A DNA stretch of 64,000 bases from an uncultured Pelagibacteraceae bacterium (GTDB taxonomy: Bacteria; Pseudomonadota; Alphaproteobacteria; Pelagibacterales; Pelagibacteraceae). Below are positions 56,237 to 63,969 of the stretch, piece by piece. Below the pieces are notes generated by a model. It was not told the DNA's origin. It made no database searches and saw nothing but the letters and a program-made list of their open reading frames with translations. The translations under genes and the position numbers were made by a program. The stretch spans positions 62,001 to 126,000 of the forward strand of contig CACOSU010000003.1 in the NCBI GenBank assembly GCA_902629935.1, in the 5' to 3' direction. Positions within the stretch are counted from its first letter, which is position 1. Each line of letters starts with the position of its first letter.

Positions 56237-57061
56237 ATGACTGATAAAAAGCCAGAACTAAGTGCCGCAATGAGAAAGAAGCTACAGCCTAAAAAATTCA
56301 CTAAAAATCCAATTCTAGGAACAAAATTTACTTTAGCTATCTCAAGTGCAAAAGGCGGCGTCGGAAAATCTACATTTGCAACGAATCTTGCTATAGCTCT
56401 TAAAAAAGTTGGATGTAAAGTTGGTCTATTAGATGCTGATATTTATGGACCTTCAATACCTAAAATGTTCAATATAAATGAAAAACCAAAAAGTGATGGT
56501 CAAAAATTAGAACCTATTACCAAATATGATATTCAATGTATGTCAATTGGTTTTTTAACTGATCAACAAACTCCCATGATATGGCGTGGTCCGATGGTAA
56601 CAAGTGCAATTAAAACATTTACTCAAAAAGTAAACTGGAAGGATTTAGACTTTATAATAGTTGATATGCCACCTGGTACTGGTGATACTCAACTAACATT
56701 TTCACAAGAAATAAAAATGGATGGAGCAATAATAGTATCAACTCCGCAAGAAGTGGCTCTTTTAGATGTTAAAAGAGGTATTAGAATGTTTGATAAACTT
56801 GGAGTTAAAATTTTAGGTTTAGTAGATAATATGAGTTTTTTTACTGGAGACGATGGAAAGAGATATAAAATTTTTGGTGAAGGAGGAGTAAAAAAGACAG
56901 CAGAAGAATTTAAAAAAGAATTTTTAGGTGAAATACCAATTAACCCTGAAGTTGGTACAACTGGAGACGCAGGAAAGCCAATAGTGGAGGCTAACCCTGA
57001 ACATGAAATTTCAAAAATATATTTAAATTTTGCTGAAAGGGTTAAATCAACTTATCTTTAA
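56237..57061 (+). CDS. apbC: Mrp/ApbC-family iron-sulfur carrier ATPase
   Basis: This P-loop protein of 274 residues has the deviant Walker [18 protein letters not shown], the switch segments [15 protein letters not shown] and [12 protein letters not shown], and the [20 protein letters not shown] helix. The family assembles and transfers Fe-S clusters. Like other short Mrp proteins it lacks the N-terminal DUF59 domain. I start at ATG 56237 (MTDKKPELS) because the longer frame from 56186 would abut the divergent hflK start and leave no promoter space; the 17 extra residues have no family character. Confidence 0.88.
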
Positions 57062-57989
57062 GATCAAAAGCAACCATTAATTCATTCCACTCTCTTTTAG
57101 ACAGCCCTGAACTTTCAACTTCTACATTTTCACCTTTAATTAGTTTTTGTATGATTACTTTTCCTTTTGCAGAAACCTCTGTTCCACCTACCCTATAATC
57201 CATAAAAGCATCATATGTAATAGGAACCCATTTTTTTAAAGTATCAAGCATTATATCAGCATAAACTCTTATTTCATATTGAGCGTGACTATCTGCTCTT
57301 AATCTTAAAAAGTTCATCAAGTTTAATAAATCTGTTTTCCAATACCACTGAGTGTAAGTATTAAGCGTTAAATTCATTCTTGCTAATTCTCTTGCTAATC
57401 CCTTTTTATTTTCATCGATTTTTGAACCATCAAACCTTTCATTAAGCATAGTCTCATAATTATCATAAGTTCTCTCTGCATCACATTTTAAAAGTTCTAA
57501 AACTTCCTCTGCCTGTTTTCCTTCCAAAACGTCTCCTCTACCCTGTCGGTTACTAGTTGATTGAGCAGCTAAATTTTCTTGTGATGGCAAATAAAATTCT
57601 TTATCTAAAATAGAGTATCTTGCAGAATACTCATTAACATTTGCAGTTCTATGTCTAATCCATTGTCTTGCAATAAATATTGGAAGCTTAACATGATATT
57701 TAATTTCACACATTTCAAATGGAGTGCTGTGCCAATGTCTCATTAGATATTTTATTAAACCTTTGTCAGTTGAAACTTGTTTAGTTCCTTTGCCGTACGA
57801 TACTCTGGCTGATTGAACTATGGATGTGTCATCACCCATATAATCAACAACTCTTACAAAACCATGATCTAAAGCTGGAATTGCTTCATATAGGATTTTT
57901 TCAAGCTCAGGAGCAGTAACTCTCTTTGTTTGATTGCTTTGAGATTGTTGATTTTTTATTTCTTCTTGTTGTTCTTTAGTTAATTTCAT
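57042..57989 (-). CDS. thyX: flavin-dependent thymidylate synthase
   Basis: This 315-residue ThyX makes dTMP with FAD and methylene-THF. The ThyX motif is present as [14 protein letters not shown], preceded by [22 protein letters not shown] and followed by a long helical C-terminal domain with [22 protein letters not shown]. An open frame extends another 41 codons upstream to 58112, but that part is antisense to the tmRNA acceptor piece and is not protein. ATG at 57989 ([10 protein letters not shown]) is therefore taken. Its 3' end overlaps the convergent mrp gene by 20 bp. Confidence 0.93.
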
Positions 57990-57997
57990 GATTGTTA

Positions 57998-58025
57998 TTG
58001 AATCTGTTGTAATTACTTTTATATT
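57998..58025 (+). promoter_or_regulatory. candidate ssrA promoter
   Basis: TTGAAT (57998-58003) and TATATT (58020-58025) are separated by 16 bp and point into the tmRNA acceptor piece. Transcription would begin near 58032. The elements also fall in the thyX upstream region on the other strand. Confidence 0.4.
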
Positions 58026-58031
58026 AATAAC

Positions 58032-58111
58032 GTTGGTTTTCCAACTACGACGATAAACGAATTTCGTAATAACCATTGCGGACGTGGGGGCAGTACCCAC
58101 CACCTCCACCA
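58032..58111 (+). ncRNA. ssrA: two-piece tmRNA, acceptor piece
   Basis: The segment ends in CACCUCC-A-CCA (58101-58111), a complete tRNA-like acceptor 3' strand with encoded CCA. A T-arm precedes it: stem GUGGG/CCCAC (58084-58088 with 58096-58100) closing a 7-nt loop GGCAGUA that lacks the usual TTC. Upstream are a GUUGG/CCAAC hairpin and a UACGA/UCGUA hairpin. The acceptor strand pairs with GGGGGUG at 58123-58129 in seven pairs, including G3-U70, the alanine identity element. The acceptor part precedes the coding part, the permuted order of alphaproteobacterial tmRNA. The 5' end is approximate. Confidence 0.92.
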
Positions 58112-58122
58112 TTACAACTTAT
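58112..58122 (+). other. intervening segment joining the two tmRNA pieces
   Basis: Eleven nucleotides lie between the encoded CCA and the GGGGGUG of the coding piece. In permuted tmRNA genes this linker is removed by processing to give two RNAs. It is short compared with what I recall for many alphaproteobacteria. Confidence 0.75.
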
Positions 58123-58290
58123 GGGGGTGAACTAGATTCGACGGGTGACTAAAGGTTATTCTTTCGTTCGGGATTGTTCCACCGTAACGGGCTATTTTAT
58201 AATTGCTAACGAAAGTTATGCACTTGCTGCCTAATTAACCTAGTTAATTAAGCAAACGGGGTTCGGGGCACCTGGCAACAGAACGCCCCT
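58123..58290 (+). ncRNA. ssrA: two-piece tmRNA, coding piece
   Basis: The segment starts with GGGGGUGAACUAGAUUCGACGG, the conserved tmRNA 5' acceptor strand and D-arm region (shown here only to its 20th base in 58123-58142 plus context). An in-frame tag follows: GCU AAC GAA AGU UAU GCA CUU GCU GCC UAA at 58205-58234, encoding ANESYALAA, whose ALAA end matches the classical proteolysis tag. A GGGG/CCCC-based hairpin (58258-58264 with 58281-58289) marks the 3' end. With the charged Ala the appended tag would be AANESYALAA. Ribosome rescue is the function. Confidence 0.92.
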
Positions 58291-58330
58291 AAAAAACAAT
58301 TACCCTTTATTTTTCAATAATAATTTTTTT

Positions 58331-58372
58331 ATAACTTCAACGAAGTTTTCAACGAAGTTTCAACGAAGTTAT
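58331..58372. repeat. three near-tandem 12-bp repeats with inverted 8-bp ends
   Basis: TTCAACGAAGTT occurs at 58336-58347, 58348-58359 and 58359-58370, and the array is bounded by ATAACTTC (58331-58338) and GAAGTTAT (58365-58372), which are exact inverses. Each unit can itself fold as a small hairpin. Short iterons at about 11-12-bp spacing fit a protein-binding array such as an origin or a recombinase accessory site. Confidence 0.85.
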
Positions 58373-58572: not shown

Positions 58573-58748
58573 TTTTATAAATACTAATGAAGATATGAGA
58601 TTACTTCATTTTAAATAGTAAAAAAAATAGGTTAGCGGGAGTGGTATAAGTGAAACATTTATCGGTAAAAAGAAATCTCTAAAATAAGTTTATATCACTC
58701 CGTTAAAATCACTACCTAATTTTTATAAATATAAATGAAGATATGAGA
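58573..58748. repeat. pair of 28-bp direct repeats
   Basis: Copies at 58573-58600 and 58721-58748 start ttttataaata and end aatgaagatatgaga, and differ at two adjacent central positions. They are 148 bp apart start to start. Direct repeats of this length in an intergenic region next to a recombinase-bearing island could be binding sites or remnants of duplication. Confidence 0.85.
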
Positions 58749-58770
58749 AGATAATATTTTCACTTTAAAA

Positions 58771-58847
58771 TGCTCACGGCAATTAAAGTTAATTAACATA
58801 AACTTATTTCTATTTAGAAATAGGTTTGGTCGCTGTTTGAGTGAGCA
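58771..58847 (+). repeat. nested hairpin just upstream of the first island gene
   Basis: tgctcac (58771-58777) and gtgagca (58841-58847) form an outer stem enclosing a 13-bp hairpin (58800-58827, arms aaacttatttcta and its complement, with one G-U pair) and the palindrome gttaattaac. The structure ends 28 bp before the next ATG. It could be a double-strand origin for rolling-circle replication or an mRNA leader; neither is shown. Confidence 0.6.
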
Positions 58848-58875
58848 CGAACAGAAATGAATAGAAGGAAAAGTA

Positions 58876-59682
58876 ATGAATATAATTACAAAAGATATAA
58901 AGACAATTAAAGATTTACGAAAGTATGTAAATTCAATTGATTGGTATAACAAAAAGTGGAACGAAAAAGATGCTGACGAAATCAATGAACAATCTGCTAA
59001 TAACTTGCTAGTTAGAAGAGATGATGAAAAAACATTTGGGTTAGCAGAGGCATTTTTCAAATCCACAATCAGTAAAAAACTACAAGCGAAAACTTATAAG
59101 TTGCCTTGGGGAACATCACAAGTTTCGTTAGATAGAAGATACAGATATAGTGAAGTAGCAGAAAGATTGGGTAAAGAGATACACAAAGAATATAAAGATA
59201 GTGACCAATCATTAAGATGTTATTACCTAAAAAATAAAGCAGGGTATTCTACTTATGATATTAGCGATGTTTTTATCTATGCCAACGAATATACAGATGA
59301 AATAGTATATGTGTCATACGATAGAAAAGATATTTGGTGGAATAATTTTTTCAAAGAATGTTTAGACGCTACAATTCCAAATAACTTTGATGAATTAAAC
59401 CGAATTAAGAAATTTAATCTTGTATTAAGAAAAGACGAGTTCAAAACAATTTCTTGTGAAGGTAAAACTTTCAAAGAGGCATTAGATAATTTTTATAACA
59501 CTAATAAAGATTTTAATGCTGAACACGAAAGTGAATATCAAAGAATGCCTAATACTTGGTTTGTTTGGGGAACAACTGCTTTAGAGAAGTTGCCTGAAAA
59601 TGAAAGTATCGTCGGTCATAAAGACATAAAAGAAAAAAGATATGTTTATGAAGACGCTAGAGAGATTGGCGATTTACGATAA
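58876..59682 (+). CDS. island protein of unknown function
   Basis: This 268-residue soluble protein has no signal peptide or membrane helix, and I recognise no family. It is charged, with many aromatic residues (SIDWYNKKWNE near residue 20, KDIWWNNFFKECLD near residue 150, MPNTWFVWGTTALEKLPE near residue 230). A good Shine-Dalgarno (gaaggaaaag) precedes the ATG. It is the first gene after the repeat-rich region and is joined stop-to-start (TAAATG) to a gene with a nuclease-type motif. A replication or DNA-processing role is therefore plausible but unproven. Confidence 0.75.
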   Translation: MNIITKDIKTIKDLRKYVNSIDWYNKKWNEKDADEINEQSANNLLVRRDDEKTFGLAEAFFKSTISKKLQAKTYKLPWGTSQVSLDRRYRYSEVAERLGKEIHKEYKDSDQSLRCYYLKNKAGYSTYDISDVFIYANEYTDEIVYVSYDRKDIWWNNFFKECLDATIPNNFDELNRIKKFNLVLRKDEFKTISCEGKTFKEALDNFYNTNKDFNAEHESEYQRMPNTWFVWGTTALEKLPENESIVGHKDIKEKRYVYEDAREIGDLR

Positions 59683-60156
59683 ATGACTAAAGAAGAGTTA
59701 AAGAATGCTCTTCTCAAAAAAGATAATAAGTTCGCCACCGATTACATTGTGGTGGCGAACACTTATATGAATATTAGTTTTAAGGAACTTACACGAAAAC
59801 TAGATTTGCTTAACGCTAAAGTGAATAAAAAACTTTTTAGATACTTTAGAAAGTATCCAGAGAAGAGAATACAATTTGCTTATAATCATCAAAGAGTGAT
59901 TAACAACACTCACTCTCATTTGATTTTAAAAGTGCCAGATGAGTATTACCAACCTCATACTGAACTTTGTCATTTAAGAGATTTGATGTGGTTTAATTGG
60001 TGGCAATTAGACGACAGACACAACAGAAAATTTAGATTGTGGTTTCAAAAAGTTGATGATGAACCAACGAGTAAATTTTTTAATGTTAATTACGCTGTGA
60101 GAGAAAATAAAAAAGACACAGCACAGAATGACGAATTTCAATATGGAATTTTATAG
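59683..60156 (+). CDS. candidate HUH-type replication/relaxase protein
   Basis: This 157-residue protein contains INNTHSHLILKVP (residues 73-85), in which H77-S-H79-L-I-L fits the HUH metal-binding motif (His-x-His followed by hydrophobics). Further on, NVNYAVRENKKD (residues 134-145) places Tyr137 where rolling-circle Rep proteins have the catalytic Tyr-x-x-Lys/Arg motif. Trp-rich spacing between the two (MWFNWWQLDD) also recalls small phage and plasmid Rep endonucleases. It follows the 268-residue gene without a gap. The small size and divergence make this a motif-based inference, not a firm family assignment. Confidence 0.55.
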   Translation: MTKEELKNALLKKDNKFATDYIVVANTYMNISFKELTRKLDLLNAKVNKKLFRYFRKYPEKRIQFAYNHQRVINNTHSHLILKVPDEYYQPHTELCHLRDLMWFNWWQLDDRHNRKFRLWFQKVDDEPTSKFFNVNYAVRENKKDTAQNDEFQYGIL

Positions 60157-60169
60157 AAGAGAGGAAAAA

Positions 60170-60412
60170 ATGAATAAATGTATAACGAGAAAACAAGGTA
60201 GTGAGGGAGTAATTAAAATCTCTCATTATTATATGAGTGAGATTGTTAGGTTATGTCTTTACACAATTAAAACGACAGACGAAACAAACTTACAAAATAT
60301 AAGAAGTAAAAAGATATTAGCAAGAATACAGAAATACTTAATTCAGACAGGAAAGAATAAAGAAATTTTTGAAAAGTATAACGAAGAACCAAAAGGAAGA
60401 TTACCGATATGA
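60170..60412 (+). CDS. small island protein, unknown
   Basis: Taken from ATG 60170, which has AGAGAGG seven bases upstream, this is an 80-residue basic protein with no recognised family. A longer frame from 60128 would overlap the HUH-motif gene and lacks a ribosome site, so I reject it. The stop overlaps the next gene's start as ATGA. It belongs to the same tight rightward operon. Confidence 0.65.
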   Translation: MNKCITRKQGSEGVIKISHYYMSEIVRLCLYTIKTTDETNLQNIRSKKILARIQKYLIQTGKNKEIFEKYNEEPKGRLPI

Positions 60413-60570
60413 TAACACAAAAAATAAGAACAATGATGTCCGAAGTAGATAGACACATTTCAAAAAAAGAACGACTAAAGGCAATGACAAAGATTGAGGA
60501 CATTGTTGAGGAGTTCAATAAAGTCAAACAAGAACAAATGACCAAAGCAAAACAGGAGAAAAAAATATGA
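60409..60570 (+). CDS. 53-residue island protein with coiled-coil character
   Basis: An ATG at 60409, inside the ATGA overlap with the preceding gene, opens 53 codons ending in an ATGA overlap with the next gene at 60567. The peptide (MITQKIRTMMSEVDRHISKK start) is very rich in Lys, Glu and Gln and is predicted helical. Double coupling on both ends strongly supports translation. Function unknown. Confidence 0.65.
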   Translation: MITQKIRTMMSEVDRHISKKERLKAMTKIEDIVEEFNKVKQEQMTKAKQEKKI

Positions 60571-60950
60571 GTTTAATACCAATGAATGTTGAGCAGATGA
60601 GAAGAAAGGCATTAGAAAACTCAAAAGCAAAACAACAACAACAAAAAGATTTTGAAAATCAAGTTAATCAAATGTCAAAGCACAATGTTGGTGGTTTATA
60701 TGATGTAAGACAAATAATGAAATCACAGCAATTCAAAGAGCAAAAGAACCATTACAATATTGAACAAGCAAGAAGTGAGTTAGAGGATTTATTACAAGCA
60801 AATCGTCTATACAAATTCTCACACGATACAGAGGAATTTATTAAAAAGATTTCTGGTAGAGAGGCAGATAGTTATACTATTAGAGAAACTGGTAAATTCA
60901 TTTCTGAATTGATTAACGAAATAAAAGCAAAATACGAAGTAAAAGAATAA
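60567..60950 (+). CDS. island protein of unknown function, helical and Gln/Lys-rich
   Basis: This 127-residue protein has a Gln/Lys-rich helical N-terminus (RRKALENSKAKQQQQKDFEN) and a charged C-terminal half with no recognised domain. An AGGAG Shine-Dalgarno lies 7 nt before ATG, inside the preceding gene. It is the last clear member of the coupled rightward group 58876-60950. It could be a scaffold, a DNA-binding accessory or a virion-related protein; the sequence does not decide. Confidence 0.7.
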   Translation: MSLIPMNVEQMRRKALENSKAKQQQQKDFENQVNQMSKHNVGGLYDVRQIMKSQQFKEQKNHYNIEQARSELEDLLQANRLYKFSHDTEEFIKKISGREADSYTIRETGKFISELINEIKAKYEVKE

Positions 60951-61000: not shown

Positions 61001-61174
61001 ATGTTTATTAACAATACACAAACACCAATAAGACAATTCAAAACTAAAGTGAATTTAACAATTAACCCTAAAATCTATGAGCAATTTAAACAAGTTGCCG
61101 AGAAAAGATTACAACCTAAATCGTGGGTGATTGAGAATATGATGAAATCTTACATTTTAGAAACGAATAAATAG
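61001..61174 (+). CDS. small ribbon-helix-helix-like (CopG/Arc) protein
   Basis: A 57-residue frame begins at ATG 61001 with tagaggat upstream. Its middle reads TKVNLTINPKIYEQFKQVAE followed by a segment like KSWVIENMMKSYI. An N-terminal beta strand (KVNLTI) followed by two short helices is the pattern of ribbon-helix-helix regulators such as CopG. In rolling-circle plasmids CopG represses rep, which fits a nearby candidate Rep gene. The assignment rests on pattern only. Confidence 0.55.
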   Translation: MFINNTQTPIRQFKTKVNLTINPKIYEQFKQVAEKRLQPKSWVIENMMKSYILETNK

Positions 61175-61276: not shown

Positions 61277-61717
61277 TTAAGAGATTTTATATTCTAAAAG
61301 AACCATTGTTCGCCAACCATTCTTCTCTTTTAAAACTTTCTTATGAACGATTTTATAACCAGCGATAGATACTTCTTCTAATTTACTATCAGCAGTTAAG
61401 TCGTAAGTTTTAGTAATACCCTTTCCATTTTCTTTATGAGTTATTACCTCATTACTTACTAATGAGTGTTGAGTAATATCCGCTATTTTTATCTTGGCAC
61501 TCAACACTGCTTTGGATTCGGAAATATTTAAATCCTTACTCCAACCATTTCCACACACCTTGATAACTCTATCTGTCTGTTTGTTTTTATTACAATACAA
61601 GTTAATGAATTTTTGTAAGTCATCTGGACTTGTAATTGTTTTCTTATTCTTAACATATGAACTATTGGTACAATTACTCATCATTAACCCAATAATCATT
61701 ATTAGTATTATTCTCAT
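61277..61717 (-). CDS. putative island lipoprotein
   Basis: This 146-residue protein begins with a short hydrophobic signal ending in MMSNC (Cys16), a lipobox-like site although Asn before Cys is unusual. The mature part is charged, with a helix around SESKAVLSAKIKIADITQHS and a C-terminal strand region. The layout recalls small LPP20-type outer-membrane lipoproteins, but I cannot confirm the family. It is the last gene of the leftward recombinase operon, directly abutting the preceding gene. A surface or exclusion role is possible. Confidence 0.6.
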   Translation of the reverse strand: MRIILIMIIGLMMSNCTNSSYVKNKKTITSPDDLQKFINLYCNKNKQTDRVIKVCGNGWSKDLNISESKAVLSAKIKIADITQHSLVSNEVITHKENGKGITKTYDLTADSKLEEVSIAGYKIVHKKVLKEKNGWRTMVLLEYKIS

Positions 61718-62196: not shown

Positions 62197-62408
62197 TTCA
62201 ATTTACCCCCTTTCTTAAAATCATAAAAATCCAAATCATCAGCAACACTTTGAGAAATTTCTTTTATGATTTTCTCTTCTCTTCTTTTTTCACATTGAGA
62301 ACACAAGGTATAACCAAGAGTGTTAGGATATTTTCTATTCAGAAATCTATCCCAATTAGACAACTCTTCATTACAATCGTAGCAAATAGGAATTATTTCT
62401 ATACTCAT
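62193..62408 (-). CDS. small zinc-ribbon-like protein
   Basis: Starting at ATG 62408, which overlaps the recombinase stop as TAATG, this is a 71-residue protein. It has two CxxC knuckles (CYDC near residue 9 and CSQC near residue 39), a likely zinc-binding pair, and a charged helical tail. A longer frame from 62453 would lie inside the recombinase gene and is not preferred. It overlaps the secreted-protein gene by 4 bp. Function unknown; a DNA- or protein-binding accessory is plausible. Confidence 0.62.
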   Translation of the reverse strand: MSIEIIPICYDCNEELSNWDRFLNRKYPNTLGYTLCSQCEKRREEKIIKEISQSVADDLDFYDFKKGGKLK

Positions 62409-63085
62409 TAAGCAACTCCTTGTAATTCTCGTTGAATTATTTTGTGTGTCCAAGACAAAGGAAACTTTTTACGAGTTGATTTAGAAATTTCTGACGAGAT
62501 TGTCCGATAACTCTTACCTTTCTTTCTCATCAAAACCATTTCTCTAATTATTTCTTGTTCTTTTTCTACAGGAACAAAAAAACCATTCTCATCTTTGTCA
62601 TAACCAAAAGTCATCTTTCCACCAGAAAACTTATTTTCAGTTTTCATTCTTTCCTTATAACTTTTAATTTTTTGTGAAGTTTGTTCTGCCTGAAATTGAG
62701 CAAAACAAGACAACATAGTTAAGAACACATTACCAATAGCGTCTGAACCAGTTGTTTCACAATTCAAATCAACGAAATGTAAATAGATTTTCTTCTTCTT
62801 AAATTTCTGAATAGTTTGAAGTAAAGACAAAGTGTTTCTACAAAATCTATCTAAATGAGAACAAATAATATGGTCATTTGTTTTAAGTTTTCTTAATAAC
62901 TCATATGCCTTTTCTCTTCTTTCAAAAGGTATTTGACCACTACATTGTTCCTCTATTACTTCATCAACTATCAAATCTTTAATAGAGGCATAGTTTCTAC
63001 ATTTTTTGATTTGTGTTTCTCTACTACTGCCTTTTTCAAACGCTTCAGCATTACTATTTCTAGTATAAACATAAACTTTAGACAT
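62408..63085 (-). CDS. serine recombinase (resolvase/invertase family)
   Basis: This 225-residue enzyme has the resolvase N-terminal domain: VYVYTRNSNAEAFEKGSSRETQ with nucleophile Ser11 flanked by Tyr7 and Arg9, the SHLDRFCRNTLSLL arginine region near residue 80, and the long E-helix (CFAQFQAEQTSQKIKSYKERM). A short C-terminal DNA-binding part follows (KKGKSYRTISSEISKSTRKKFPLSWTHKII). It is of resolvase/invertase size, so it may resolve or invert DNA rather than act as a large integrase. An AAAGGAG Shine-Dalgarno lies 6 nt before ATG. It heads the leftward island operon. Confidence 0.9.
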   Translation of the reverse strand: MSKVYVYTRNSNAEAFEKGSSRETQIKKCRNYASIKDLIVDEVIEEQCSGQIPFERREKAYELLRKLKTNDHIICSHLDRFCRNTLSLLQTIQKFKKKKIYLHFVDLNCETTGSDAIGNVFLTMLSCFAQFQAEQTSQKIKSYKERMKTENKFSGGKMTFGYDKDENGFFVPVEKEQEIIREMVLMRKKGKSYRTISSEISKSTRKKFPLSWTHKIIQRELQGVA

Positions 63086-63249: not shown

Positions 63250-63969
63250 ATGAAATTAACCTTTAGAGAACAACAACCAGTAAGATTGTGGTTTCTATAT
63301 CTTCAAACTTGTTTAAGAGATGAAGTATTAAGTAAGAAAGTTAATAGAAACTTTTACAAAGATTGGCATTTAAATTCGGTTAAAACTCAAAAATTCAATA
63401 CTTGGATTAAATCTCATCAACATCTATTTACAAAAGAGTTTGAAAGTAAAATAAAACTATATCAAGGCAAGAGAACACCTAATTCATTACTTGTTGAAAT
63501 ACCTTTAGATTACACCGTTCAAAAAATACAAAGAGATATTGGTAAAGTAGTAAAAGGTAAGATAGCACAAAAACAAACTAATCAACGATTTCAAATAACA
63601 GCGAAACAAAATCTTAAAATAGCACCATTTGATTACTTTCTTTATGCTTGGCAAACAAAGAGAAAATATGATGTGAGAAAAAAGAAAATTAAACTAGAGG
63701 ATATTTGGCATATTGTAGATAGACACATTAGAGCAAGACAAAGCAGAGTTAAATCTTGGTTAAAAGATAGAGAAGTTATTGACAAAAAAACAGGTAGAAA
63801 AAAATTCATTAAAGGCACAATAAAAAGAAGAGAGTTAAGTCGTTTTCATAATGAAGAACGAGGTGTAGTCAAAGCAAAAGCAATTGTAATTTCAAAAAAT
63901 ATTAAAAAGGCACAATCACTTTTAGAGAATGTATGTAAAGGTGTTTTTCCTGGTGACTATTCAATTTAA
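63250..63969 (+). CDS. island protein of unknown function, basic
   Basis: From ATG 63250 this is a 239-residue, strongly basic protein with no signal peptide. It starts MKLTFREQQPVRLWFLYLQ, has a central LLVEIPLDYTVQKIQRDIG segment near residue 85 and a Lys/Arg-rich C-terminal part with many predicted helices. I recognise no family. The charge suggests nucleic-acid contact. The start choice follows from the promoter at 63178-63206, which would lie inside any longer frame. It is transcribed away from the recombinase operon and may continue the element beyond the window. Confidence 0.72.
   Translation: MKLTFREQQPVRLWFLYLQTCLRDEVLSKKVNRNFYKDWHLNSVKTQKFNTWIKSHQHLFTKEFESKIKLYQGKRTPNSLLVEIPLDYTVQKIQRDIGKVVKGKIAQKQTNQRFQITAKQNLKIAPFDYFLYAWQTKRKYDVRKKKIKLEDIWHIVDRHIRARQSRVKSWLKDREVIDKKTGRKKFIKGTIKRRELSRFHNEERGVVKAKAIVISKNIKKAQSLLENVCKGVFPGDYSI

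Follow-up and report, generated by a model that had tools for sequence, protein, structure and literature searches.

Nicking enzymes of the HUH Rep type are well known, and they include proteins as small as the Rep of the rudivirus SIRV, which consists of 119 aa. Rep_1 (PF01446) is the family of rolling-circle initiators of the pC194/pUB110 type. In Reps, the HUH motif precedes the tyrosine motif, and the order is reversed in relaxases (PMC5714925). Integrated plasmids that carry HUH Reps are known in bacterial chromosomes (PMC6668415), and in the SNJ2 provirus, excision joins the ends of the element into a functional replication operon (PMC13107129). In a literature search, no description of a rolling-circle initiator in SAR11 was found; the compact SAR11 rep family analyzed here, and the element that carries it, appear to be undescribed. 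The locus lies in a 64,000-nucleotide stretch of genomic DNA from an uncultured Pelagibacteraceae (SAR11) bacterium (hereafter, the window).

The candidate initiator is encoded by an ORF at 59683-60156 of the plus strand, with an ATG start and a product of 157 aa. The initial annotation pointed to H77-S-H79 followed by L-I-L, and to Tyr137, all of which were reproduced exactly from the sequence: H77 (codon 59911-59913) and H79 (59917-59919) flank S78, L80-I81-L82 follow directly after H79, and Y137 (60091-60093) is located in the context N-V-N-Y-A-V-R-E. With IVVANTY (residues 22-28) as motif I, H77-S-H79 as motif II and Y137-A-V-R as motif III, the motifs are arranged in the I-II-III order of Reps, not in that of relaxases. 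Under a loose definition (HxH, two hydrophobic residues, and Y-x-x-[K/R/H] 30-70 residues downstream), the motif turned up in 0.57% of 100,000 shuffled versions of this protein, and 2 of the 81 stop-to-stop frames of at least 100 aa in the window carry it. The motif alone is thus only mildly unusual, so that homology evidence is required. Comparison of the 157-aa gene with its homologue from freshwater SAR11 (LD12) yields dN of 0.11 and dS of 0.90 (dN/dS ~0.12), which points to a real gene under clear purifying selection.

Rep_1 is the best Pfam match of the window protein (E=0.0026), and it is also matched by the homologues from AG-422-F10 (E=0.0011), LD12 (E=0.0034, with an alignment that extends into the Tyr region) and G832 (E=0.0036), that is, by four of the six family members, with E-values between 0.0011 and 0.0036. 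All these matches are below the gathering threshold, at 17.2-19.0 bits compared to the Rep_1 cut-off of 33.2, and no match of the rep proteins to any family reaches the curated Pfam cut-off. The REP_ORF2-G2P family (PF23343) is matched, below its cut-off and over the region of the HUH strand, by two of the six members (G832, E=0.037, and G199, E=0.036); the window protein itself has no match to this family. When compared with a reference set of 13 Rep_1 plasmid initiators, including those of pC194 and pUB110, the family aligns with P=7e-5 in hhalign, with HxH placed on HxH and THSHLILKVP over NPHFHLIMAVP. A profile of the 13 Reps assigns 14.9 bits to the window protein and 16.6 bits to the LD12 protein, compared with 10.2 bits for the best of 5000 shuffles, and ranks the rep family first among 585 local ORFs. 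A tblastn search of 72,556 plasmids matched four records, all of them Enterococcus plasmids (E 0.8-9); in three of these, the match falls in an annotated rep gene. Searches of the rep family against NCBIfam and PHROGs gave no match at a meaningful score, a tblastn search of the phage collection gave no match to rep, and sequence searches of the PDB returned nothing relevant. No relatives were found in viral contigs with rep-family proteins or alignments, with the integrase, or with the 263-aa protein as queries.

Searches of SAR11 whole genomes recovered more distant homologues in G832 (140 aa, 42-44% identity), G199 (167 aa, ~21-22% identity) and G149 (151 aa, ~15-21% identity, no Pfam match). 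A profile built from the G199 and G149 proteins finds G832 at E=2.5e-7; its direct match to the window protein lies within shuffle noise. By these comparisons, G832 bridges the two halves of the predicted family, and the neighboring core genes are common to G199 and G149. Weak genome matches in G288, G166, G047, G132, G340, G178, G196 and G018 (E 0.002-0.009), as well as in G004, were set aside as noise because of their weak scores and, in several cases, in-frame stops. Across the six sequences, with identity down to ~15-22%, only 12 columns are invariant, and these include H77, H79, I81, P85 and Y137. Conservation of the His and Tyr residues among homologues had been set in advance as one of two checks of the HUH endonuclease assignment, and all three residues are invariant in the six homologues; together with the Rep_1 and REP_ORF2-G2P profile evidence, this supports the assignment.

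The tyrosine motif was originally described as Y-x-x-K-like. The tyrosine itself is indeed invariant, and YxxK is found in relatives, but the window protein has YxxR (the variants in the family are YAVR, YSLK, YSSK and YMTK). The Tyr region of the G199 protein, IATRYSSKEF, is very like IAKYSAKDF of plasmid Reps. In the local alignment of the window protein with the Rep_1 profile, E141 falls at the Rep_1 Glu register and no Tyr occupies the Tyr position; at low identity, the G832, G199 and G149 homologues favor Y137 over the E141 register as the probable active-site tyrosine. In the alignment of the 13 Reps, E224, K227 and Y228 are invariant and an N-terminal Cys is nearly so. The invariant Rep_1 Glu (ExxKY, four residues before Tyr) is missing from the 157-aa protein, where F133 is found at that place, and the region of the N-terminal Cys cluster is absent. 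Given these two differences and the sub-gathering scores, the 157-aa protein does not appear to be a strict member of Rep_1. It resembles this family in the I-II-III motif order, in the HxH, hydrophobic residues and VP-x-Y/F stretch, in the YxxK-like Tyr motif, and in an alignment that spans residues 18-152, but is about half as long and lacks, in addition to the Cys cluster and the Glu, the C-terminal domain. The missing catalytic Glu, the YxxR version of the Tyr motif, and the lack of a helicase or oligomerisation domain would all be compatible with an origin-binding or regulatory protein that has an HUH-like fold and has lost, or never possessed, nicking activity. We regard this as very unlikely, because the His pair and the Tyr belong to the best conserved positions in the family, most others of which drift.

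An AlphaFold2 model built from three sequences is of low confidence (pLDDT 50, pTM 0.48). It contains strands at residues 21-29, 64-72, 75-83 (the HUH strand) and 117-123, and helices at 33-55 and 93-109; at this pLDDT of 50, the resulting beta-alpha-beta-beta-alpha-beta succession is the one seen in Reps, and the HUH strand occupies its expected position. A Foldseek search with this low-confidence model gave no significant match, to HUH folds or otherwise. The list consists of generic ferredoxin-like folds, and IS200-type TnpA and AAV Rep appear only among the insignificant matches, so that the predicted HUH fold is suggestive only. A Y1 transposase, IS200/IS605-like or REP-associated, acting by single-strand cut and paste, would be of similar size, would have one catalytic Tyr, and would agree with the presence of IS200-type TnpA among the weak fold matches. 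However, there is no family match to such enzymes at E<=1, the rep gene is present in a single copy in the genome, and it is invariably found with one set of core genes that belong to a larger element with its own integrase and recombinase, which makes a transposase highly improbable. That the motif arose by coincidence in an unrelated protein with a ferredoxin-like fold would be in line with the occurrence of the motif in 2 of the 81 window frames and with the generic nature of the weak fold matches, but is extremely unlikely given the significance of the profile comparisons and the fact that the three residues do not vary among homologues of 15-44% identity.

Thus, the 157-aa protein is very probably a minimal Rep-type HUH endonuclease that consists of a single domain. 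It was initially thought to be among the smallest Reps; it is small, but not a record, as the SIRV Rep is smaller. The Rep of SIRV, which belongs to an orphan HUH cluster (PMC6668415), and the TnpA proteins of IS200/IS605 are likewise very small single-domain HUH enzymes, but we detected no sequence relationship between either of them and the 157-aa protein, and their genetic setting differs. With the SAR11 proteins, the HUH initiators would gain a family of very small members encoded by a bacterial element.

The rep gene resides in an integrative mobile element of ~9.4 kb inserted at the 3' end of ssrA (tmRNA, 57994-58293). An exact 13-nt repeat inside the 3' end of ssrA, AACAGAACGCCCC (58277-58289, plus strand), is the attL core, and the repeat recurs outside the window, at L010 11691-11703 (67690-67702 on the window scale), which sets the size of the element. 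Three direct repeats of TCAACGAAGTT (58337-58370, plus strand) were considered as the attachment core and rejected, the duplicated 13-nt end of ssrA being the better core; they occur a fourth time at the right end (L010 11621) and are more likely to be arm-type sites of the integrase. No empty insertion site could be demonstrated, as in the relatives examined, the gene that flanks the element on the right was not located next to ssrA. Next to the insertion site, the thyX frame, when taken from its first ATG (57042-58112), extends antisense into ssrA, and its actual start probably lies close to 57990.

The first gene in the order of the element is a 268-aa ORF (58876-59682, plus strand) that has no family match and an AlphaFold model too weak for use (pLDDT 48). 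As initially noted, this ORF ends with TAA and the ATG of the rep gene begins at the very next base (TAAATG). The proposed link between the two products did not prove general: the 268-aa protein is only 28% identical in the LD12 element, and the ORF is absent beside Rep in G832, G199 and G149, so that this partner is dispensable rather than an obligate subunit. Rep is followed on the plus strand by a small ORF that overlaps its end (60128-60412, with a counterpart in the G259 element), a 53-aa ORF (60409-60570, with counterparts of 49-54 aa in related elements), a 127-aa protein belonging to the core of this family of elements (60567-60950, 73% identical in G259 and with counterparts of ~121 aa in G199 and G149) and a predicted 57-aa ribbon-helix-helix (RHH, Arc-like), repressor-like DNA-binding protein (61001-61174; phrog_3180, E=2.3e-8). 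Then come putative lipoproteins, including one of 146 aa on the minus strand that is conserved in related elements (61277-61717), a serine recombinase of the resolvase/integrase type (62408-63085, minus strand; PF00239, E=1.8e-24; phrog_95, E=1.9e-41), and a basic protein with no assigned function that is common to related elements (63250-63969, plus strand, with 63250 as the likely start). The right part of the element, beyond the window, encodes a 251-aa protein, a sliding clamp of the T4 gp45 type and a tyrosine integrase, which has the same orientation as rep at the opposite end of the element.

The sliding clamp (L010 9637-10374, or 65636-66373 on the window scale) matches phrog_223 with E=1.5e-41 and the gp45 C-terminal family of Pfam above the cut-off. 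Its nearest counterparts are the clamps of cyanophages (~28% identity), and it is unexpected for a small integrative element to carry a processivity factor of phages.

PADLOC found no defence-system match for seven element proteins, and no phage structural genes were recognized among the element proteins searched. The element, which is bounded by att sites and encodes an integrase and a T4-type clamp, might be a satellite that depends on a helper phage. It resembles integrated plasmids, which also have a Rep in a site-specifically integrated element devoid of capsid genes, but the ones described carry nuclease-helicase Reps (PMC6668415), whereas the SAR11 element has the nuclease only, together with the phage-type sliding clamp. 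Like PICMIs (PMC10803314), it is a small marine integrative element with few genes; PICMIs are found in Vibrionaceae. The mobility of the element, and the chemistry that relaxases share with Reps, raise the question of whether the HUH protein nicks an origin of transfer for conjugative mobilization, all the more so as pC194 and pUB110 encode Rep_1 proteins that interact with the transfer system of ICEBs1 (PMC5714925). Such a role is quite unlikely: the position of the Tyr after the HUH motif is the opposite of that in relaxases (PMC5714925), there is no match to a relaxase/MOB family, and no conjugation genes are recognizable among the ORFs of the element.

The ~540 bp that precede the operon show good alignment with LD12 at 58723-58851 alone (130 bp, 84% identity). 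This non-coding block (plus strand) contains three potential hairpins; one 7-bp stem shows a two-sided T-A to C-G change relative to LD12, and the folding z-score is -2.1. The paired change is weak evidence for the stem, being a single compensatory change between two lineages only. The block could be a double-strand origin containing the nick region, for which it is the best candidate, or else a leader of the operon or its RNA. No nick site of the pC194 type (CTTGATA) was found near the rep gene. A 28-nt direct repeat (58573-58600 and 58721-58748, 93% identical), the second copy of which overlaps the conserved block, represents possible iterons. SAR11 bacteria rank among the most numerous of ocean cells, and to our knowledge, almost no genetic tools exist for them; this compact candidate pair of Rep and origin, if functional, could become the basis of a replicating SAR11 vector.

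If the 157-aa protein is a Rep, the anatomy of the element suggests a possible life cycle. The tyrosine integrase would release the element from its site at the 3' end of ssrA. As in other HUH Reps (PMC5714925), H77 and H79 would hold a metal ion, and Y137 would nick one strand at an origin in front of the operon, for which 58723-58851 is the most likely location. Y137 would then stay on the 5' end, and host or helper-phage enzymes would extend the 3' end around the circle; the 157-aa protein has no helicase domain, and unwinding would therefore have to be supplied by the host or by a helper phage. Because the integrase and rep are co-oriented at opposite ends, excision would place the integrase directly upstream of rep. 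We tentatively propose that excision of this satellite-like element might switch on rolling-circle replication, with the integrase then located upstream of the origin and the Rep operon, and that its own T4-type clamp might load on the circle or compete for the polymerase of a T4-like phage. The SNJ2 provirus/Rep-Arvir system (PMC13107129) is similar in having the integrase at one end and a hairpin-bearing origin near rep, but differs in the archaeal host and in a Rep_trans-related, non-HUH fold.

Related elements in G259, LD12, G832 and G199 have parts of the core in common, whereas their insertion sites and integrases differ, which suggests that a set of elements in SAR11 exchange their integrases and insertion sites but retain a replication core. 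The G259 element also occupies ssrA, with the same duplication of the ssrA end, but lacks both Rep and the 268-aa partner; Rep is thus not always needed by the element. A long non-coding stretch in G259 (L024 11590-12424) shares 88% identity, over 204 bp, with the DNA that precedes Rep in G832, as if the rep-less element might replicate in trans. G832 itself contains a 71-bp segment identical to the ssrA end of G259 (L039 10106-10176), which lies beside pnp and the element core, with the rest of ssrA absent, and may be either a secondary insertion or an assembly join. In G199, Rep, the 52-aa and 121-aa proteins, the RHH protein, lipoproteins and the serine recombinase are packed into less than 4 kb (L041 7668-11354), and this compact core module adjoins tRNA-Leu, with a different tyrosine integrase beyond.
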